Assembly (NCBI GenBank): GCA_016875915.1
Contig: VGOM01000009.1
Span: 1 to 64,000, forward strand
Source: Chloroflexota bacterium
Lineage (GTDB): Bacteria; Chloroflexota; Dehalococcoidia; UBA2247; RBG-13-53-26
Direction of reading: 5' to 3'
DNA: 64,000 bases
Shown here: positions 21,171 through 62,630 of the stretch, in pieces
Position numbering within the stretch: position 1 is the first letter of the stretch
Layout of the letters: the number at the start of each line of letters is the position of its first letter
Made by a program: the position numbers and the translations under genes
Notes under the pieces: generated by a model
Told to the model about the DNA's origin: nothing
The model's input: only the letters and a program-made list of their open reading frames with translations
Database searches by the model: none

Positions 21171-22052
21171 CTACAGCCCCAGGCTCTTGTAGCGCGCATC
21201 CCTGGCGTGGAAGGCATCTTTGGCGGTGCCCCTGTCTCTCCTCTCCTTGAAGAAGTTGAACTCATCGTCCTCCCACCTCAGGTTGGTGAACAGCGTGTGC
21301 GAGATGTAGGCCGGGACGAAGTCGCTGATCAGTCCTATCCGATCGAAGATGATGTGGCGGGTGGCCTTCCCGATGGCGATGCCGTCGCGGGGGAGCAGGG
21401 TCATGGCCATGGCCAGCTTGCGGGTCTCTTCGTCCAGCTTGTCTGCCGGGACGGCCTTGTTCACCAGTCCGATCTCCGCTGCTTCCTTGCCCGATATCGT
21501 CTTGCCGGTGAGCAGGAGCTCCATGGCCCTCTTCATTCCCACGTGGTAGATCAGGTGGGTGATGCCCAGCACACCGCTGCCTGAGAAGCCCAGCCGCTGC
21601 TCGGTCAGGCCCAGCTTGGCATCCTCGGCTGCCACGGCCAGGTCGCACAGCAGGGGGAAGTACACCCCGCCGCCGATGCAGTAGCCGTGAAGCTGGGAGA
21701 TGGTGATCTTGGGATTGAGGAAGACGTGCATCATGTTGTCGTCCATGCCCATCTTGTCGTACTTCAGCCTGATCCTCTGGCTGGGCTTGCGCTCGCCGGC
21801 CTTGCCGGTGCCCATGCCGTAGATGAAGCCCACCTTGGTCAGGTCATGGCCCACGGTAAAGGCCTTCCCGGAGCCCCTGAGGATGATCACTTTGACGTCG
21901 TCGTCGTCCGCCGCCTGATCGAACGCCCGCCATACCTCCTGGGCATCCTCACCCCGCCCGATCCACTGGAAGGCGTTCATCTTGTCCGGCTTGTTCATGG
22001 TGATGGTGGCGATCTGGTCCTTCACTTCGTAGATGATGTACTTGTAGCTCAA
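21171..22052 (-). CDS. enoyl-CoA hydratase/isomerase family protein
   Basis: Crotonase motifs GSGKAFTVGHDL, LHGYCIGGGVYFPLLCDLAVAAEDAKLGLTEQRLGFSG; TTG start preceded by AAGGAGGAG. Confidence 0.9.
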   Translation of the reverse strand: MSYKYIIYEVKDQIATITMNKPDKMNAFQWIGRGEDAQEVWRAFDQAADDDDVKVIILRGSGKAFTVGHDLTKVGFIYGMGTGKAGERKPSQRIRLKYDKMGMDDNMMHVFLNPKITISQLHGYCIGGGVYFPLLCDLAVAAEDAKLGLTEQRLGFSGSGVLGITHLIYHVGMKRAMELLLTGKTISGKEAAEIGLVNKAVPADKLDEETRKLAMAMTLLPRDGIAIGKATRHIIFDRIGLISDFVPAYISHTLFTNLRWEDDEFNFFKERRDRGTAKDAFHARDARYKSLGL

Positions 22053-22180
22053 ATCTCCTCCTTCAACGATTGTTTGTCGCAGGGGTCGGCATTCGCAGCC
22101 CTTCCCCTGGTTGCGGCTTCGTCTTCCCGGTACGCGTCTCTCTCGATACCCTCTCACTCCTCTCCGGTGCCATGTCTTGC

Positions 22181-24739: not shown

Positions 24740-25756
24740 CTAGTAGGGGACGCGTCTGAGGTTGCCCATCAGCCTCAGGTAGGCCGGGTAGTCCACATAG
24801 GTCTTGCGGGCGATGTACTTCTCCAGTGTAGTGGTCCTGCCCCTCTTCTTCTCGATGGCTTCATTGGCCACAATGCTGAAGGCAGTGGCCGTGCCCGACC
24901 CGTAGGAGGCGACCAGCAGCCTCTCGCCCGGCTTGGCCTGGTCCAGGGCGCCTGTCAGGCACAGGAAGGGAGACACCCCGCCTACGTCACCGATAGCCCC
25001 TGTGAGGTCAGGGAACACGTTCTTCATCCCCAGAGCCTTCCCTGCCCCGGCGGGCACCCTGGCGTCCACCTGCGGGAATATGGCCAGCTTGTAGTCAGCC
25101 GTCTTCTTGTTGATCTTGGCCATGACGGCCTTGGACGCTTCCTCTATGTGTTTCGCATAGCCATCGTCCCGGTAGAAGCGCTGGTCAAAGAGGTTGCTGA
25201 CCCAGGGGTCTTTGGCGGCTCTCCACCTGTCCAGGAACAGGGTCCGGTATGACTGCACTCCTTCGATATCGGCTATCGTCCCCTGGTTGCCGATGACCAT
25301 GGCCACGGCCGCGGCACCGAAGCTGACCTCTCCGTCCGATCCCGGCCCCACCATTCTGTTCTCGGTTCCCACCACAATGCCGCAGTCTATCCTCTTGGCC
25401 TCGACGGCCATCATGCACTGCGACAGCGCCGTACCCACTGCGTTCACGCTGCCCATGAAGTCCAGCACGGAAGCATGTGGCGACAGGTTCAGGGTCTCGG
25501 CCAGTACAGGGGAAAGGTGGGTCTCAATCATAGGCGAGGAAGCCGTGCCCATGTACAGCGCACCGACATCTGCAGCCTTGACGCCGGAGTGCTTCACGGC
25601 GTTGTCCAGGGCCTCGGCCGCCATGCTGATGATGTCCTCGTCCCAGCCGCAAACGGCCTTCTCTCCCATTGCCCATCCGCCCCAGGGGATGGCTGCGTCC
25701 TGCTGCTTTATTCTGTACTTGGGGACGTAAGCACCGTATCCAATGATTCCAATCAT
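24740..25756 (-). CDS. hydroxymethylglutaryl-CoA synthase family protein (archaeal-type, catalytic residues apparently substituted)
   Basis: N-terminus MIGIIGYGAYVPKYRIK, DEDIISMAAEALDNA, C-terminus GERLLVASYGSGTATAF match archaeal-type HMGCS; expected catalytic motifs absent (see findings). Confidence 0.85.
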   Translation of the reverse strand: MIGIIGYGAYVPKYRIKQQDAAIPWGGWAMGEKAVCGWDEDIISMAAEALDNAVKHSGVKAADVGALYMGTASSPMIETHLSPVLAETLNLSPHASVLDFMGSVNAVGTALSQCMMAVEAKRIDCGIVVGTENRMVGPGSDGEVSFGAAAVAMVIGNQGTIADIEGVQSYRTLFLDRWRAAKDPWVSNLFDQRFYRDDGYAKHIEEASKAVMAKINKKTADYKLAIFPQVDARVPAGAGKALGMKNVFPDLTGAIGDVGGVSPFLCLTGALDQAKPGERLLVASYGSGTATAFSIVANEAIEKKRGRTTTLEKYIARKTYVDYPAYLRLMGNLRRVPY

Positions 25757-25770
25757 CGCTCCCTCCTTAC

Positions 25771-26979
25771 CTATGGCTCACGACCGATGATGTTGACGGA
25801 GGATACCCCGAATCCGTTGCCACCAACGTTGTGGCTCAGGGCGATGCCCTTCTTCAACTTCACCTGCCTCACTGGTTCTATCTGTTCCCGCAGTTGCCAG
25901 AAGTTCTCGCAGATCTGGCCCAACCCTGTGGCGGCAATTGGATGTCCGTGTGCCTTCAGCCCTCCACTGGGGTTGATGGGTTTGTGCCCATCCTCTCGGT
26001 TCCAGTAGCCTTCCTTGAGGAGCTTGTGTGCTTCGCCCTTCTTGCAGAAGCCGATGTCCTCGATGTTCAGGAGTTCGGTGTTGGTGAAGCAGTCGTGAAC
26101 CTCAGCCAGGTCGACGTCCTCTGGCTTGATCCCGGCCATGTCCATGGCCATCTTCGCTGCGAACTTGGTGGCCGGCATCTCGATGAAGTTCTCTTTGTCC
26201 CACATGTCCTTGTAGTCTACCCCGGTGGCGCTTCCCAACACGTAGACCGGCTTGTCGGTGTACTTCTTGGCCAGATCGGCGCGGCAGACTATGGCGCAGG
26301 CAGCACCATCAGTCTGCGGGCAGCAGTCCAGCAGGTGCAGTGGCCAGCAGACCACCGGGCTGCTCAGCACTCTCTCCACCGTAACCTCGAAACGGTACTC
26401 CGCATAGGGACATGCCACGCCGTTGTGATGGTTCTTCACCGCTACCCGGGCGAAGTCCTCCATGGTGCAGCCCAGTTCGTGCATCTGTCTGGTGGCGTAG
26501 AGCGCCTGAAGCACCGGGCCGCCCATGCCCATCATCCAGGAGGGATGCAGGCCCAGGATGCCGCCGCCGGCTCCTCCACCAGCCGCTACCAACGATTCCA
26601 CTCCGGGCTTGTCCCTCATCTTCTCTGCGCCCAGGGCCAGAACGACATCGTAGGCACCGGAGGCGACGCCCAGCACGGCATTCCGGAAGACATCGTTGCC
26701 CGTTGGGCAGCCGTTCTCCAGCCTGCTGATGGGAATGCCCCGCAGTCCAAGGACGGTCCCCAGGGTCGTGCCCTCACGTGAGCCTTGCCCGATCATGCCA
26801 CCACCGCTCCACTGACCGAACCAGGCTGCCTTGATGTCCTTCGGGTCGAACCCCTTGTCGACGCTCTTCACGCAGCTCATGAAGGCTTCCTGGATCATAC
26901 TCTCCAGGCCCTTGTGGAAGAGTTCCCCGAAGGGGATCAAGCCCACGCCGATTATGGCTACCTTGCCCCTGACGCTCAT
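25771..26979 (-). CDS. thiolase family protein (SCP-x/archaeal acetyl-CoA acetyltransferase type)
   Basis: ENGCPTGNDVFRNAVLGVASG (nucleophilic Cys), EVHDCFTNTE, NPSGGLKAHGHPIAATG. Confidence 0.93.
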   Translation of the reverse strand: MSVRGKVAIIGVGLIPFGELFHKGLESMIQEAFMSCVKSVDKGFDPKDIKAAWFGQWSGGGMIGQGSREGTTLGTVLGLRGIPISRLENGCPTGNDVFRNAVLGVASGAYDVVLALGAEKMRDKPGVESLVAAGGGAGGGILGLHPSWMMGMGGPVLQALYATRQMHELGCTMEDFARVAVKNHHNGVACPYAEYRFEVTVERVLSSPVVCWPLHLLDCCPQTDGAACAIVCRADLAKKYTDKPVYVLGSATGVDYKDMWDKENFIEMPATKFAAKMAMDMAGIKPEDVDLAEVHDCFTNTELLNIEDIGFCKKGEAHKLLKEGYWNREDGHKPINPSGGLKAHGHPIAATGLGQICENFWQLREQIEPVRQVKLKKGIALSHNVGGNGFGVSSVNIIGREP

Positions 26980-26980
26980 G

Positions 26981-27409
26981 CTAGGCCTCCTCTACCAGTC
27001 TGAACTTGTAACCGTAGAAGTCCAATCCGCTGTCGTTCAGCAGTCTCCGGAGCACCATCTCCACCTTGGTGCCGATCTTGACTTCTTCCGGGTTGGCGAC
27101 TTCTGTGATCAGCCCCACATATCGGCCCCCGCCGTCCAGGTCAACGATGACATTGACGGTCGGCGGCTCCAGGCCGGGTGGCGGCGTCCAGTTGATGCAG
27201 AAGGTGTGCACCTTTCCCGTCTTGGGCAACTGGTGGTCCTTCTGATTGAAGCTGCCGCACTTGTGGCAGATCTTGGTCTGCGGGTAGGTTATGTGACCGC
27301 AGTCGGAACACTTCGAGCCCAGTAGGTGGTAGACGGTTGGGTTGAGTCTCCAGAACAACGGCGATGCCGGTCTCGGGGATTGCATCCTTTCTCTTTCCCA
27401 CATGGTCAT
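26981..27409 (-). CDS. Zn-ribbon/OB-fold DUF35 protein
   Basis: CSDCGHITYPQTKICHKCGS zinc ribbon followed by OB-fold; adjacent to thiolase gene; SD AGGAGG. Confidence 0.92.
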   Translation of the reverse strand: MTMWERERMQSPRPASPLFWRLNPTVYHLLGSKCSDCGHITYPQTKICHKCGSFNQKDHQLPKTGKVHTFCINWTPPPGLEPPTVNVIVDLDGGGRYVGLITEVANPEEVKIGTKVEMVLRRLLNDSGLDFYGYKFRLVEEA

Positions 27410-27661: not shown

Positions 27662-28804
27662 ATGGACCTGAGTCTGTCTGAACAGCAAGAGATGCTCCGC
27701 AAGATGGCGCGGGATTTCCTGACCACCGAGTGTCCCAAGAAGCTGGTCAGAGACATGGAAGAAGACCCCAAGGGCTACGTGCCGGAGCTCTGGCGCAAGA
27801 TGGCCGAGCTCGGCTGGCAGGGGTTGCCCTTCCCCGAGCGATATGGCGGTGGGGACGGGAGCTTCCTGGACCTGGTCATCCTGCTGGAGGAGATGGGCCG
27901 CGCCCTTCTGCCCAGCCCCTTCTTCTCCACGGTGGCCGTCTGCGGACTGACCATCCTGGATGCCGGCACTGAATCGCAGAAGAAGCACTTTCTGACCGCA
28001 ATAGCCAACGGCGACATGATCCTCACCCTCGCCCTGGCCGAATCGGCCGGCGGATACGACGCGGCGGAGATCACCGCCCAGGCTGTCAAGCACGACGGGA
28101 AGTACGCCCTCAGCGGGACGAAGCTCTTCGTTCCCGATGCCCATGTCGCCGACTGGATACTCTGCGCGGCCAGGACCTGCAAGGGTCAGGACCTCGAGGA
28201 GGGGGTCACCGTCTTCATGACCGAACGGGCAGGCCACGGACTGACCTGTTCCGTGATGCCCTCTCTATCCAAGGAGAAGCTGTGCGAGGTGGTCCTCGAC
28301 CACGCTGCTGTGCCTGCGGAGAGCATTCTGGGCCATCTCGATCAGGGCTGGCCGGTGCTGCACCGGACTCTGCAGCGGGCGGCGGTGGCCAAGAGCGTGG
28401 AGATGGTCGGTGGGGCACAGCAGGTCCTGGAGATGACGGTCAACTATGCCAAGGAGAGGGTGCAGTTCGACAAGCCAATCGGCAGCTTTCAGGCCATCCA
28501 GCACCACTGCGCCAACATGGCCATAGACGTAGACAGCTCGCGGTATCTGGCCTATCTGGCTGCCTGGAAGATGAGCGAAGGCCAGCCGTGCGAAACGGAA
28601 GTGGCCGTGGCCAAAGCATGGGCGAGCGAGGCCTACAAGCGCATCTCCGTGCTGGGCCACCAGGTTCACGGGGCCATTGGCTTCACCCTGGATCACGACA
28701 TGCAGCTCTACTCCAGGCGGGCCAAGGCGGCGGAGGTCATCTTCGGGGATGCCGATTTCCATCGGGAGGCGCTGGCCCGGCAGTTGGAAGCTCAGCACGT
28801 CTAG
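27662..28804 (+). CDS. acyl-CoA dehydrogenase family protein
   Basis: LSEQQEMLRKMARDFL, PERYGGGDGSFLDLVILLEEMGRAL, YAKERVQFDKPIGSFQAIQHHCANMAIDV, HQVHGAIGFTLDHDMQLYSRRAKAAE. Confidence 0.95.
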   Translation: MDLSLSEQQEMLRKMARDFLTTECPKKLVRDMEEDPKGYVPELWRKMAELGWQGLPFPERYGGGDGSFLDLVILLEEMGRALLPSPFFSTVAVCGLTILDAGTESQKKHFLTAIANGDMILTLALAESAGGYDAAEITAQAVKHDGKYALSGTKLFVPDAHVADWILCAARTCKGQDLEEGVTVFMTERAGHGLTCSVMPSLSKEKLCEVVLDHAAVPAESILGHLDQGWPVLHRTLQRAAVAKSVEMVGGAQQVLEMTVNYAKERVQFDKPIGSFQAIQHHCANMAIDVDSSRYLAYLAAWKMSEGQPCETEVAVAKAWASEAYKRISVLGHQVHGAIGFTLDHDMQLYSRRAKAAEVIFGDADFHREALARQLEAQHV

Positions 28805-38482: not shown

Positions 38483-39418
38483 TTACTTCTTGTCCTCGGG
38501 CGGGGCCGGATTGACGTAGCCCTTGAGCAGGTTGGGCATGCACTTCTCCACTTCGTCCACGGTCCACTTGCCGTAGGTGTCCCAATCCCGGTTGTAGATC
38601 GCGGTCTCCTTGGACGGCGCCCAGTAGGAGAAGAAGGCCCCCGCCGTGCCGAAGATGCAGCCATTGACGTGACCGGCCTTGTCGCTGGCCAGGTAGGCCG
38701 GGATGGCTGCCAGGTAGTCGGCTGTGGCCACATGGGTCACTTCATCATACTTCTCCTTGGTCCACAGTCCTGACTCCACTCGCTTCTTGTATCCCGCCAG
38801 GACGTCCGGTCCCAAGGTCATCCTGGTGGCCGCCCTGGGGCAGATGGCATTGCAGGTCACCCCGTACCGGCCCAGCTCCCAGGCCACGGCGTAGGTCAGG
38901 CTGGCGATGCCGCCCTTGGCCGCGCCGTAGTTCACGTGACCCACGGTGCCCACGAAGGCTTCGGAGATGGTGTTCACGATCCGGCCGTACTTCTGCTCTC
39001 TCATAAGGGGGGCGGCATGGCGGATGGTGTTGAAGGTACCCTTGAGGTGTACCGCTATCACTACGTCCCAGTCCTCTTCCGAGAGGTTCCAGATCATTCT
39101 GGCCCTGTCGATGCCGGCCACGTTGACCAGGATGTCTATCCTGCCGAAGTTGCTGACGCAGGCCTGGATCATGGCCTCGGCGGCCTTGAAATCGGCCACG
39201 CTGCCATACTGGGGTATGGCCTGGACGCCTAGCTTCTTGCACTCCTCAACGGTGGCGTCGGCCAGAGTGGTGCTGGCTCCCTTGCCGTCAACGCCCCCGC
39301 CCAGGTCGCAGACCACGATGTTGGCTCCCTCGGCGGCCAGCGCCACGGCCACTGCCTTGCCGATGCCGCTGCCGGCACCAGTGACTACTGCATTCCTGCC
39401 CTTCAGTCTGTCAGCCAT
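38483..39418 (-). CDS. SDR family oxidoreductase (MFE-2/HSD17B4-like), paralogue 1
   Basis: VVTGAGSGIGKAVAVALAAEGANIVVCDLGG, NVAGIDRARMIWNLSEEDWDVVIAVHLKGTF, YGAAKGG. Confidence 0.95.
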   Translation of the reverse strand: MADRLKGRNAVVTGAGSGIGKAVAVALAAEGANIVVCDLGGGVDGKGASTTLADATVEECKKLGVQAIPQYGSVADFKAAEAMIQACVSNFGRIDILVNVAGIDRARMIWNLSEEDWDVVIAVHLKGTFNTIRHAAPLMREQKYGRIVNTISEAFVGTVGHVNYGAAKGGIASLTYAVAWELGRYGVTCNAICPRAATRMTLGPDVLAGYKKRVESGLWTKEKYDEVTHVATADYLAAIPAYLASDKAGHVNGCIFGTAGAFFSYWAPSKETAIYNRDWDTYGKWTVDEVEKCMPNLLKGYVNPAPPEDKK

Positions 39419-39451
39419 GATGTCGAATCCTCCTTATCGAATCAACTGTCT

Positions 39452-40396
39452 CTACTTCTTCTCTTCCGGCTTTGGTGGAGCCGGGTTGACATAGCCCTTG
39501 AGCAGCTTGTCCGCTGCGAAGGCCGCCTTGATGGCCTCCACGGTCCACGGCCCTTCACTGGGGTTCTCCGCCTGGGCCACCGGTTCCGGCTTGCTGTATC
39601 GGGCCACGGTCAGGGCCGTGGTCAGGAACACCTGCCCGTTGACCAGGGCAGCATCATCGCTGGCGAGGAAGGCCACGATCCCGGCAAATGCCGAAGGGTC
39701 AACCATCTCCCGGTCCATCCTCTTCAGCACCGAGGCATCCATCAGCCCCTTCTCCACCCGCTTGACCACCATCTCCCGCACCTTGGGGTCATCCGTCATC
39801 CGCGTCTTCGCCCGGGGGCAGATGGCGTTCACGGTTATCCCCGACGGACCCAGTTCCTGGGCCGCTCCCCAGGTGAGGGTGACGATGCCGCCCTTGGCTG
39901 CACCGTAGTTGAGGTGGGTCACGCCGCCCAGCCAGGCTTCCGAGGTGCAGTTGATGATCCTGCCGTATCGCTGCTCCCTCATCAAAGGAGCGGCCTGTCT
40001 CATGAAATTGAAGGTGCCCTTCAGATGGACGGCGACCACCTGGTCCCACTCCTCCTCGGACATGTTCCAGATCATCTTGGGCTTGTCTATTCCGGCGATG
40101 TTGCACAGGATGTCGATCCTGCCGAAGTTGTCCACGCAGGCCTTGACTGCTGCCTCGGCATCGCTGAACTTGGCCACGTTGCCGAACTGGGCGATGGCCT
40201 TGACGCCATGCTTCTTGCACTCGGCCACCGTCTCGGCGGCTGGACTCTGATCGGTCCCTGAGCCGTCCACGGCCACGCCGAGATCGCAGGCCACCACGTT
40301 GGCACCCTGCTCGGCCAGGGCCACGGCCACTGCCCTGCCGATCCCCCTCCCCGCACCGGTCACCACCGCGTTCTTGCCCTTCAGTCTATCACCCAT
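39452..40396 (-). CDS. SDR family oxidoreductase, paralogue 2
   Basis: VVTGAGRGIGRAVAVALAEQGANVVACDLG, NIAGIDKPKMIWNMSEEEWDQVVAVHLKGTF, YGAAKGG. Confidence 0.95.
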   Translation of the reverse strand: MGDRLKGKNAVVTGAGRGIGRAVAVALAEQGANVVACDLGVAVDGSGTDQSPAAETVAECKKHGVKAIAQFGNVAKFSDAEAAVKACVDNFGRIDILCNIAGIDKPKMIWNMSEEEWDQVVAVHLKGTFNFMRQAAPLMREQRYGRIINCTSEAWLGGVTHLNYGAAKGGIVTLTWGAAQELGPSGITVNAICPRAKTRMTDDPKVREMVVKRVEKGLMDASVLKRMDREMVDPSAFAGIVAFLASDDAALVNGQVFLTTALTVARYSKPEPVAQAENPSEGPWTVEAIKAAFAADKLLKGYVNPAPPKPEEKK

Positions 40397-40479
40397 GAAT
40401 CGGTCCTCCTTTGTTCTAGTCTGTGCAGTCCGTCATCTGACGATTCATCGACACCACCCGTCGGCAGCAAGGCGGTCAC

Positions 40480-41424
40480 TCAGGCCTTCGCCGGCGCGGG
40501 ATTCACGTATTCTGACAGAAGCTCCGACGGAACCCGCTTCTCCAGTTCCGCGATGCTCCAGGGCTCCTCGATCTCCCAGTCCCGGGTGAACTTGTGGATG
40601 ATGGCCGGGTGGTTCCACACCCCGATGGTGGCCCTGGAGGCCACAAAGACGCAGCCGTTCACATTGGCCGCCGCGTCGCTGGCCAGGTAGGCCACGAAGG
40701 GAGCGAAGTGCTCCGGGTCGGCCCCCTCCCTCCTGGTCTCCTCCATCCCCTGCAGGCGTTCCTCCGAGATGAGGCCGGCCTCCATCCGCTTCTGCAGTCC
40801 CTGATCCTGGTCGTCTCCCACGCTCAGCCTGGTTCGCGCCCGCGGTGCGAAGGCATTGCAGGTCACCCCGTATCTGCCCATCTCCCTGGCCACGTCGTAG
40901 GTCAGGCTGACGATGCCGCCCTTGGCTGCGGCGTAGTTGGAGTGGCCCACGGTCCCGGCGTAGGCCTCGGAGGTGCAGTTGACGATCCGGCCGTACCTCT
41001 GCTGTCTCATGACCGCGCACGCGTGTCTGCAGAGGTTCCAGGTTCCCTTGAGGTGGACGGCCAGCACCCGGTCGAAATCCTCTTCCGACATGTTGAAGAT
41101 CATCCTGGGTCTGAGGATGCCGGCTATGTTGCACAGGATGTCCAGGCTGCCGAACCGGCTGACGCAGGCCCGGACCATCTCTTCGGTGGCCTTGAAGTCG
41201 GAGACATCGGCGGAGTATGCACTGGCCTCGACGCCGAGCTTGCGGCATTCCCCGGCCGTGTCTTCGGCGGGACCCTGGTCGCTGCCCGTCCCGTCCATGG
41301 CCACCCCCAGATCGCAGACCAGAACGTTGGCTCCCTCCCTGGCCAACGCCAGGGCCACTGCCCTGCCGATTCCCCTGCCGGCACCGGTCACCAGCGCACT
41401 TCTGCGCCTTAGCCTCTGCCCCAA
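40480..41424 (-). CDS. SDR family oxidoreductase, paralogue 3
   Basis: LVTGAGRGIGRAVALALAREGANVLVCDLG, NIAGILRPRMIFNMSEEDFDRVLAVHLKGTW, YAAAKGG. Confidence 0.95.
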   Translation of the reverse strand: MGQRLRRRSALVTGAGRGIGRAVALALAREGANVLVCDLGVAMDGTGSDQGPAEDTAGECRKLGVEASAYSADVSDFKATEEMVRACVSRFGSLDILCNIAGILRPRMIFNMSEEDFDRVLAVHLKGTWNLCRHACAVMRQQRYGRIVNCTSEAYAGTVGHSNYAAAKGGIVSLTYDVAREMGRYGVTCNAFAPRARTRLSVGDDQDQGLQKRMEAGLISEERLQGMEETRREGADPEHFAPFVAYLASDAAANVNGCVFVASRATIGVWNHPAIIHKFTRDWEIEEPWSIAELEKRVPSELLSEYVNPAPAKA

Positions 41425-59458: not shown

Positions 59459-60442
59459 TCACTCGCCCTTGACCCTGCGCAGCCAGTGCTCCACCCACGA
59501 CACCAGTTCGCCGTGGCTCAGGATCTCCTCGGCGGCCGAGTAGGGGTCGAGGTCGCCCTTCTCCACCTTCTCCAGGTAGGCGTTGAGCTGCCCGTCGCTC
59601 TCCACCAGCCTCAGCACCTGGCTGGTGATCCTGTCCTCGATGGTGTGCAGCAGGTCAGCCCTCCGCTGCTTCTGCCGCTTCAACGACAGCCTGCCGCTGC
59701 ACTTTAGCGCCTCGTAGTGTTTCTCGATGTGCTGGTACAGCTCCCTGGTGCCCACGTCGTTGGTGGCTTGGGTGGCCACGATGGGCACCTCCCACCACTC
59801 ATTCTTGGGCTTCTGGTGGAGCATGGCCATCAGGTCGGCCACCACCAGGTCGGCCCCGGGCCGGTCGGCCTTGTTCACCGCGAAGACGTCGGCGATCTCC
59901 ATTAGCCCGGCCTTCATGGTCTGGATGGTGTCCCCGGCCTCGGGGACCAGCACCACCACCACTGTGTCCACCGTCTCCATGACGTCGATCTCCGTCTGGC
60001 CCACCCCCACCGTCTCCACGAGGATGACGTCCTTCCCTGAGGCATCCATCAGCTTGATCACGCTGGGCGCCGTCCTGGGCAGTCCCCCGTGGCTGCCCCG
60101 GGTGGCCATGCTGCGGATGAACACCCCCTCGTCCAGGAAGTGCTGCTGCATCCTGATCCTGTCCCCCAGCACCGCCCCTCCCGAGAACGGGCTGGTTGGG
60201 TCGACCGCCAGTACCCCGACCTTCAACCCCTTCTCCCTGGCGATCCCGGTCAGCCGGCCCACCAGCGTGCTCTTGCCTCCGCCGGGGGGGCCGGTGACAC
60301 CCACGCACAGCGCCTTGCCGGTGTGAGGATAGACGGCCCTCAGTATCTCGGGCGCCTCTGGGCTCTCTCTCTCCACCAGGGTGATCAGTCGGGCCAGCGC
60401 CTGCTTGTCGCCGGAGAGCATCTTCTCTACCAGTTCGGTCAT
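59459..60442 (-). CDS. meaB: MeaB/ArgK family G-protein chaperone of B12-dependent mutase
   Basis: GVTGPPGGGKSTLVGRLTGIAREKGLKVGVLAVDPTSPFSGGAVLGDRIRM, ETVGVGQTEIDVMETVDT, NKADRPGAD. Confidence 0.96.
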   Translation of the reverse strand: MTELVEKMLSGDKQALARLITLVERESPEAPEILRAVYPHTGKALCVGVTGPPGGGKSTLVGRLTGIAREKGLKVGVLAVDPTSPFSGGAVLGDRIRMQQHFLDEGVFIRSMATRGSHGGLPRTAPSVIKLMDASGKDVILVETVGVGQTEIDVMETVDTVVVVLVPEAGDTIQTMKAGLMEIADVFAVNKADRPGADLVVADLMAMLHQKPKNEWWEVPIVATQATNDVGTRELYQHIEKHYEALKCSGRLSLKRQKQRRADLLHTIEDRITSQVLRLVESDGQLNAYLEKVEKGDLDPYSAAEEILSHGELVSWVEHWLRRVKGE

Positions 60443-60501
60443 TCGGTCTCCTCGTTCCGTTCGGCGGCCGGGATGGCGGCACAATGCTGCAACCCTGAGT
60501 T

Positions 60502-60531: not shown

Positions 60532-60578
60532 AGTTGGGAACGAATCGGATTCAAATCCGGCACTATCGAGGAGGCTCC

Positions 60579-62180
60579 ATGGCTGAGAACAAGGACGGGC
60601 AGGTCTATACCGCGTCAGGCATACCCGTCAAGGACATCTACACACCGGATGACGTCAAGAAGGTCGACTACAACCGGGACCTGGGCTCGCCCGGCCAGCC
60701 GCCGTTCACCCGCGGTGTCTATGCCAGCATGTACCGCGGCCAGCTGTGGACCATCAGGCGTCTCACCGGCTACAGCACTCCCGAGGACACCAACAAGCGC
60801 TACCGCGATGAATACGCCATGGGGCAGACCGGCTTCTCCATCGCCCCTGACATCTCCACCGCCGCCGGCATGGACCCCGACGACCCCCGGGTCTCGGCGG
60901 ACGTTGGCCATTCCGGCGTTCCCATCTACTCCATCGAGGACATGGAGGTCGTCTTCGATGGCCTGCCCATTGAGAAGTGCTCCACCTACCTCGCAGACCG
61001 TGTCGGTGGACTGCTAAGTCCGGCCTACTTCATCATGGCTGAGAAGCGGGGCATCCCCCTCAACTACGTCAGAGGCACTACCCCCAATGACCTGTTCACC
61101 TGGAGCTCCATGGACCTGGCCAACCAGCCCCCTCCCGATGCCTACGTCCGCTATGCCGTGGACTTCATCGAGTGGTGCACCGAGCACGCGCCCCGCTGGT
61201 ACCCCGTCTCATTCAATTCCTACAACCCGCGTGACAACGGCCTGAGCGCCGTCCAGGAGGTCGGCGGGCTCATGGCCACGGTCATCCAGTATGTTGATGA
61301 GGAGAAGCGCCGGGGCAGGATCCCCCTGAATAAGTTCGTCAAACGCTTCGCCTTCAATATGGCGGCCAACAACGACTTCTTCGAGGAGATCGCCAAGTTC
61401 CGCGCCGCCCGGCGGATGCTCTACCGGTTGATGAAGGACAGATACGGCATCGACGACCCCACTTGCGGCCAGTTGCGCGTTCACGTTCAGACCTCTGGCT
61501 CCACCCACACCCACCAGGAACCCCTGAACAACCTGGTCCGTATCGCCTACCAGGTGCTCGCCGGTGTCCTCGGCGGGGCCCAGTCAATCCACGCCAACGG
61601 CTACGACGAGGCCGTCTGCCTCCCCACGGAGGAGGCCATGCTCCTCGCCATACGCACCGAGCAGATCGTTGCCCTGGAGACCGGCGTCACCAACACCGTC
61701 GATCCCCTGGGCGGCTCCTACTACGTGGAGAGCCTCACCAATGAGCTGGAGGAGCGCGCCTGGGACTACGTCAAGAGGATTGAGGACGTCGGCGGTATGG
61801 CCGAGGCGGTCAAGTCGGGATGGATCCACAGAGAGTACAAAGCGGCCATCATCGACTATGAACGCAAGCTGGATGCCGGCGATGTCACCGTTGTCGGAGT
61901 CAACAAGTTCCGTCTGGAGAAACCGCCCTACAAGGTGCCTATCTTCAGGCCCGATCCCAAGTCCCCCGATCTGCTCATCGAGAGGATCAAGCTGCTCCGC
62001 AAGAACAGGGACAATGCCCGCGCCGCAGCCGCGCTGAAGGAGTATGAGAGGGCGGCCCGCAGCACCGAGAACACCGTGCCGGCCATCTTCGAGGCGGTCA
62101 AGGCCCACGCCACTCCCGGCGAGCTTGCCGAAGTTCAGCTCAGAGTCACCGGTGGCTGGACCTACCCCATCGCCGGATAA
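60579..62180 (+). CDS. B12-dependent acyl-CoA mutase, large (substrate-binding) subunit; divergent from methylmalonyl-CoA mutase
   Basis: PPFTRGVYASMYRGQLWTIRR, FFEEIAKFRAARRMLYRLM, VLGGAQSIHANGYDEAVCLPTEEAMLLAIRTEQIVALETGVTNTVDPLGGSYYVESLT. Confidence 0.93.
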   Translation: MAENKDGQVYTASGIPVKDIYTPDDVKKVDYNRDLGSPGQPPFTRGVYASMYRGQLWTIRRLTGYSTPEDTNKRYRDEYAMGQTGFSIAPDISTAAGMDPDDPRVSADVGHSGVPIYSIEDMEVVFDGLPIEKCSTYLADRVGGLLSPAYFIMAEKRGIPLNYVRGTTPNDLFTWSSMDLANQPPPDAYVRYAVDFIEWCTEHAPRWYPVSFNSYNPRDNGLSAVQEVGGLMATVIQYVDEEKRRGRIPLNKFVKRFAFNMAANNDFFEEIAKFRAARRMLYRLMKDRYGIDDPTCGQLRVHVQTSGSTHTHQEPLNNLVRIAYQVLAGVLGGAQSIHANGYDEAVCLPTEEAMLLAIRTEQIVALETGVTNTVDPLGGSYYVESLTNELEERAWDYVKRIEDVGGMAEAVKSGWIHREYKAAIIDYERKLDAGDVTVVGVNKFRLEKPPYKVPIFRPDPKSPDLLIERIKLLRKNRDNARAAAALKEYERAARSTENTVPAIFEAVKAHATPGELAEVQLRVTGGWTYPIAG

Positions 62181-62192
62181 CTGAAGGAGAGG

Positions 62193-62630
62193 ATGCTCAT
62201 GGACAAGAAGAGAGTCAAGATACTCATGGCCAAGCCCGGACTGGAGGGTCACTGGCGGGGCATGATCGCCGTCAGCAGCGCCTTCAGGGACGCTGGCTTC
62301 GAGGTGGTCTACGGCGGCAATATCCTCCCGCCGGAGATCGCTGCCACCGCCCTGCAGGAAGATGTGGATATCGTGGGGCTGAGCATCCTGTCGTCGAACT
62401 ACATGCGCCTGGTAGCCGAGACCATCAAGGAACTGAAGGCCCGCGGCAAGGGCGATGTCATGGTCCTCCTCGGTGGCATCATCTATGAAGAGGACTTCCC
62501 TGCCCTGAAGGAGATGGGCGTCGCCGGGATATTCGTCCCCGGAACTCCGCTGAAGGACATCGTGGACTTCGTCAACGAGAAGATGTCCGCTCCGGCCCAC
62601 AAAGGCCACAAGACCCACAGAGCAAAGTAG
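62193..62630 (+). CDS. B12-binding small subunit of acyl-CoA mutase
   Basis: RVKILMAKPGLEGHWRGMIAVSSAFRDAGFEVVYGG...EDVDIVGLSILSSNYM...VLLGGIIYEEDFPALKEMGVAGIFVPGT. Confidence 0.94.
   Translation: MLMDKKRVKILMAKPGLEGHWRGMIAVSSAFRDAGFEVVYGGNILPPEIAATALQEDVDIVGLSILSSNYMRLVAETIKELKARGKGDVMVLLGGIIYEEDFPALKEMGVAGIFVPGTPLKDIVDFVNEKMSAPAHKGHKTHRAK

Follow-up and report, generated by a model that had tools for sequence, protein, structure and literature searches.

The window, a stretch of 64,000 nucleotides of DNA from a Chloroflexota bacterium of the class Dehalococcoidia, carries a three-gene operon in which the genes for a DUF35 protein, a thiolase and, last, a protein resembling HMG-CoA synthase (HMGCS) follow one another, separated by 1 and 14 bases, respectively. 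The genes at the locus are as follows.

24740..25756, minus strand: HMGCS-like gene (product P0001), 338 aa, ATG at 25756, no Glu/Cys/His triad
25771..26979, minus strand: partner thiolase gene, 402 aa, NGCPTGN Cys, HDCF, GHP and HN motifs all kept
26981..27409, minus strand: DUF35 gene, 142 aa, zinc ribbon and OB fold, Cys34/37/48/51
27662..28804, plus strand: acyl-CoA dehydrogenase gene, divergent, upstream of the operon, with the same layout in the nearest relative (L010)

The open reading frame that the original prediction had placed at 24740-25756 is real, but the gene runs on the minus strand, from 25756 down to 24740. It is followed on the same strand by leuS. The closest named relative, with 83% identity, is L010, a contig of a Dehalococcoidia MAG. 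An enoyl-CoA hydratase/isomerase family gene (21171-22157, minus strand), which is a possible pathway member, was observed downstream of leuS and on the operon strand. Farther away, three open reading frames of approximately 311-314 aa lie in a row at 38483-41424 on the minus strand; they cluster into one family (F2), members of which were also seen near other thiolase cassettes.

P0001 was aligned with the HMGCS of Methanothermococcus (6esq) and with PhlA. The catalytic Glu, Cys and His fell opposite Ala72, Val104 and Pro228, respectively, at the following codons.

25541..25543, minus strand: Ala72 codon, position of the catalytic Glu by alignment to 6esq HMGCS
25445..25447, minus strand: Val104 codon, position of the nucleophilic Cys, preceded clade-wide by Ser/Thr103
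25073..25075, minus strand: Pro228 codon, position of the catalytic His by alignment to 6esq HMGCS

The three motifs quoted in the original prediction, GTASSPM (residues 70-76), LDFMGSVNAVGTA (residues 98-110) and IFPQVDARV (residues 226-234), were all found in the P0001 translation, and the alignment confirmed that Glu, Cys and His are missing; only the gapped placement of the Cys-site motif was slightly off, as no insertion is needed there. In the window clade, the triad columns were occupied by A/T/S (Glu), V/L (Cys) and P/Q/Y (His), with all seven rows non-catalytic, and E/C/H was present in 27/27 of the genuine HMGCS rows compared (26 Chloroflexota rows, one locus being represented twice, and the archaeal enzyme). 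The recurrence of non-catalytic residues at the same three positions in 7/7 clade rows indicates that the absence of the triad is not a matter of chance or sequencing error. No conserved Cys, His or Glu that might substitute from a shifted position was found in the clade alignment: the sole clade-wide His (residue 203) is also present in HMGCS, and Cys36 and Cys114 lie away from the site. Other HMGCS-invariant residues were lost as well, namely Glu101 and Phe102 from the window-type proteins and Tyr259, which was replaced by Gly in 27/27 window-type and 5/5 PhlA-type rows. A Ser or Thr one residue before the former nucleophile was found in 25 of the 27 window-type rows (Ser103 itself in 23/27), and Arg134, a nearly class-specific residue near the former active site, in 25/27, where HMGCS has Ala. 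The conservation of Arg134 and Ser103 near the old site could mean more than scaffolding.

The AlphaFold2 model of P0001, based on a 13-sequence alignment, showed the HMGCS fold (pLDDT 86.6, pTM 0.88), and its first ten Foldseek matches were all HMGCS-like subunits of three-part complexes (TMq of 0.90 for 6esq, 0.89-0.90 for PhlA 9skh/5mg5 and 0.88 for MucABC 9vbo). In an unrooted tree calculated with the catalytic columns removed and long branches left out, the triad-bearing, PhlA-type and window-type rows separated at 100/98, 100/99 and 100/99. All triad-less rows lay on one side of this tree (100/98), which is not by itself proof of a single loss, and an earlier tree with an outgroup was compatible with triad loss once or twice. 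P0001 was placed outside the PhlA clade, so the comparison with PhlA would be one of analogy and not of strict orthology.

The partner thiolase had been predicted to retain its Cys (NGCPTGN) and the GHP motif. Both were present (Cys91 and GHP at 345), together with HDCF at 295 and the HN motif. Among the sampled window-type partner thiolases, Cys, HDCF and GHP occurred in all and HN in nearly all, and the DUF35 protein retained its four zinc-ribbon cysteines. When 100 related genomes were searched with the thiolase (E <= 1e-130) and the HMGCS-like protein (E <= 1e-100), orthologues of both turned up in the same seven genomes, side by side; the HMGCS-like gene has been retained beside the thiolase in seven genera. 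The HMGCS-like gene had a dN/dS of 0.11-0.13, as against 0.05-0.07 in the thiolase gene and 0.08-0.09 in the DUF35 gene. The HMGCS-like gene is thus constrained, somewhat less than the catalytic thiolase, as expected of a structural part.

Among PDB entries, the archaeal acetoacetyl-CoA thiolase/HMGCS/DUF35 complex of Methanothermococcus (6ESQ/6ET9) was the best sequence match for all three window proteins, and its HMGCS (6ESQ) was the best fold match for P0001, the only window protein folded. This HMGCS has Glu/Cys/His and makes HMG-CoA, whereas the window protein is without the triad. PhlA (Pseudomonas protegens PpATase, 5M3K/5MG5; Chromobacterium CsATase, 9SKH) resembles P0001 in having the HMGCS fold with Cys and Glu gone and His changed to Gln, in sharing its locus with genes for a Cys-bearing thiolase and a DUF35 protein, and, as compared with HMGCS, in having Gly259, Ala150, Gly199 and a Gly-Asp motif in common with it. 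In PhlA, Cys aligns with Gly115 and Glu with Cys83, both catalytic residues being gone (PMC6392133). Catalysis by PhlABC involves PhlC residues only, PhlB links dimers of PhlA and PhlC in an A4B4C4 heterododecamer, and an active enzyme is obtained only when all three genes are co-expressed (PMC6392133); the C88S substitution in PhlC abolished activity (PMC12955522). The MucABC acyltransferase of Streptococcus macacae (9VBO/9VBT) likewise has three parts, one of them an HMGCS-like subunit without the triad, but it showed only 18-19% identity in structural alignment and is described as an acyltransferase complex. Benzoylsuccinyl-CoA thiolase BbsAB (7PXP) combines a thiolase with a zinc-ribbon/OB subunit and is catabolic, and both window partners match it. 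The identity of these partners as BbsAB was rejected, as they scored 40.4 bits with NF053627 and 181.2 bits with NF053628, far below the respective cut-offs of 250 and 750 bits. The BbsAB complex is described as made up of BbsA and BbsB and is not known to contain an HMGCS-like subunit.

In our judgment, P0001 quite probably belongs to a three-part thiolase complex as a non-catalytic subunit of HMGCS fold, the catalytic part being the thiolase. The original prediction had proposed such a non-catalytic structural or scaffold subunit, and this proposal is supported by direct observations: the fold, the operon, the clade-wide loss of the triad, the motifs of a live thiolase, co-occurrence and purifying selection. 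We infer the assembly, the structural role, the reaction direction and the substrate; contact with the thiolase would follow from homology and the operon. In such a complex, the reaction would take place in the thiolase; it would most likely be the CoA-dependent cleavage of a beta-ketoacyl-CoA by thiolysis, within a route of beta-oxidation type. DUF35 would bridge the thiolase and the HMGCS-like subunit. The HMGCS-like dimer would be required for assembly and would line a shared acyl-CoA cavity. By analogy, P0001 would work like PhlA. Because PhlA has been published without Cys and Glu and with a catalytic partner, the triad-less structural subunit is already known as a kind. The clade would provide a clear example of a pseudoenzyme that seems to have been retained for the assembly of a catabolic thiolase.

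P0001 exceeded the cut-off of NF003274 (PRK04262.1, hydroxymethylglutaryl-CoA synthase equivalog; 255.7 vs 244 bits), as might a working HMG-CoA synthase whose catalytic residues come from elsewhere in the sequence. However, its TIGR00748 score was 208 bits, below the cut-off of 353, no replacement Cys, His or Glu was seen, and residues 101, 102 and 259 (Glu, Phe and Tyr) are also gone. Furthermore, HMG-CoA reductase (PF00368) was not found in the window's genome (93% complete), whereas Dxr was, so that isoprenoids are not expected to be made by way of HMG-CoA and a role of P0001 in isoprenoid synthesis was ruled out. The TIGR00748 search made for the contrast set gave matches over the cut-off in 63 Chloroflexota genomes, 0 of them from the window's class, and there was none in the window's own genome. 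A working synthase is very improbable, and we do not regard P0001 as a member of HMG-CoA synthase. NF003274 does not discriminate the triad-less class, and under it P0001 would be misnamed HMG-CoA synthase; because it accepts a dead protein, genomes without the mevalonate pathway may be wrongly credited with this enzyme. Loss of all three catalytic residues would also fit a decaying pseudogene, but the frame is intact, and the dN/dS of 0.11-0.13 together with conservation beside the thiolase in seven genera ruled this out, leaving it a negligible probability.

Other readings leave the HMGCS-like subunit or the complex with a different activity. The site might have been remodelled, for example around Ser103 or Arg134, so that the subunit runs another reaction in tandem with the thiolase; both residues are almost invariant in the class but do not occur in HMGCS, and the pocket region is still conserved. 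We consider this decidedly unlikely, as the nucleophile column contains V/L/P/T/Q/I and the His column mostly P/Q/Y/D, with no conserved replacement Cys or His, and helix-capping would explain a Ser directly preceding the nucleophile position. The second option of the original prediction, new chemistry on the HMGCS fold, received no positive support, although it keeps a small probability. It is also unlikely that P0001 is a regulatory or substrate-binding pseudoenzyme, in which the old pocket would bind acyl-CoA and gate it or channel it to the thiolase: all three proteins of the archaeal complex contribute to one CoA site, and acetyl-CoA would fit into PhlA, yet PhlABC lacks CoA-binding residues there (PMC6392133). 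The three-part architecture and the triad loss, both as in PhlABC, would suit a CoA-independent C-acyltransferase in place of a thiolase. This alternative has a slim chance: the window thiolase has the SCP2/archaeal HDCF motif, which is absent from the PhlA-type cassette L042, P0001 belongs to a clade apart from PhlA, and its neighbours are catabolic, with no biosynthetic cluster and no setting of diacetylphloroglucinol synthesis.

The original prediction had implied that a protein of this sort is rare. This was wrong, as triad-less relatives are widespread, and seven more, of 476-522 aa and fused to DUF35, lie in the window's genome.

Contigs C3, C10, C15 (two), C16, C21 and C41 of G000: seven HMGCS-DUF35 fusions (L002-L008)

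All seven lack the triad as a set, as do plasmid relatives and the PhlA-type proteins, and most of the seven adjoin a Cys-bearing thiolase. In the fused relatives L035 and L036, Glu is retained, and Cys and His are both gone. The fusions resemble the window protein in that their HMGCS domain lacks the triad and accompanies a Cys-bearing thiolase, but DUF35 is fused at their C-terminus, whereas the window clade has it as a separate gene. They go under the names 'OB-fold domain-containing protein' or 'ACP synthase III C-terminal domain-containing protein', and a literature search found no papers on their function. At L032 and L034, a double cassette was observed, in which a fused HMGCS-DUF35 gene and a thiolase gene lie beside an unfused trio of DUF35, thiolase and HMGCS-like genes. 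A scan of genome contigs returned one relative only, and when sampled genomes from across the phylum were searched with P0001 (E <= 1e-75), nothing beyond the window turned up.

The reverse arrangement was observed at Chloroflexota loci with a genuine HMGCS (L047-L071 and L073), where in most cases the Cys of the adjoining thiolase is changed to Gly, Asp or Glu and GHP is often gone. At the readable loci, about 17 distinct thiolases beside a genuine HMGCS were Cys-less versus 5 that kept the Cys, and at L073, the one case checked, DUF35 is also adjacent to the genuine HMGCS and the Cys-less thiolase. These sequences support the idea that in this complex family either of the two sites can be lost without loss of its subunit, which would favour an assembly role for the dead half. 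The site lost would be that of HMGCS in the window-type, PhlA-type and fused complexes, and that of the thiolase in several mevalonate complexes of Chloroflexota. We tentatively raise the possibility, doubtful as it is at this stage, that the thiolase/DUF35/HMGCS complex is an ancient two-engine scaffold, either engine of which has repeatedly been shut down with the dead half kept, and that the dead half of the window clade may have gained a new role in handling the substrate around Arg134 and Ser103. With the mirror-image Chloroflexota complexes, the question of why dead halves persist becomes testable. A further locus, L072 (G166:C5:162533-163576), lies in a genome that also has a genuine HMGCS; it encodes a triad-less copy of PhlA type, next to a thiolase-like gene whose product bears the Cys.

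The surroundings of related cassettes were of beta-oxidation type. The L039 cassette, a beta-oxidation operon, comprises ECH, 3HCDH, an HMGCS-DUF35 fusion, thiolase and ACAD, the L016 cassette comprises an HMGCS-DUF35 fusion, thiolase and ACAD, and on named plasmids related cassettes lie among similar beta-oxidation-type genes. In two related genera, the operon adjoins genes for MeaB and a B12-dependent acyl-CoA mutase with its B12 subunit, and a CoA-transferase gene is nearby. The window contains the corresponding genes listed below.

59459..60484, minus strand: MeaB GTPase gene, part of the mutase module that adjoins the thiolase operon in two related genera
60534..62180, plus strand: acyl-CoA mutase large subunit gene, sharing 81% identity with the G005 copy that adjoins the operon
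62193-62630: 145-aa open reading frame, located where relatives have the B12-binding subunit

Our best guess is that the substrate is an unusual acyl-CoA and the thiolase a degradative one. The window mutase reads NSYNPRDNG at a motif that we take to be SGYHxREAG in methylmalonyl-CoA mutases. Judged by this motif, the usually invariant His may be Asn in the window mutase, which is possibly a new mutase subtype.
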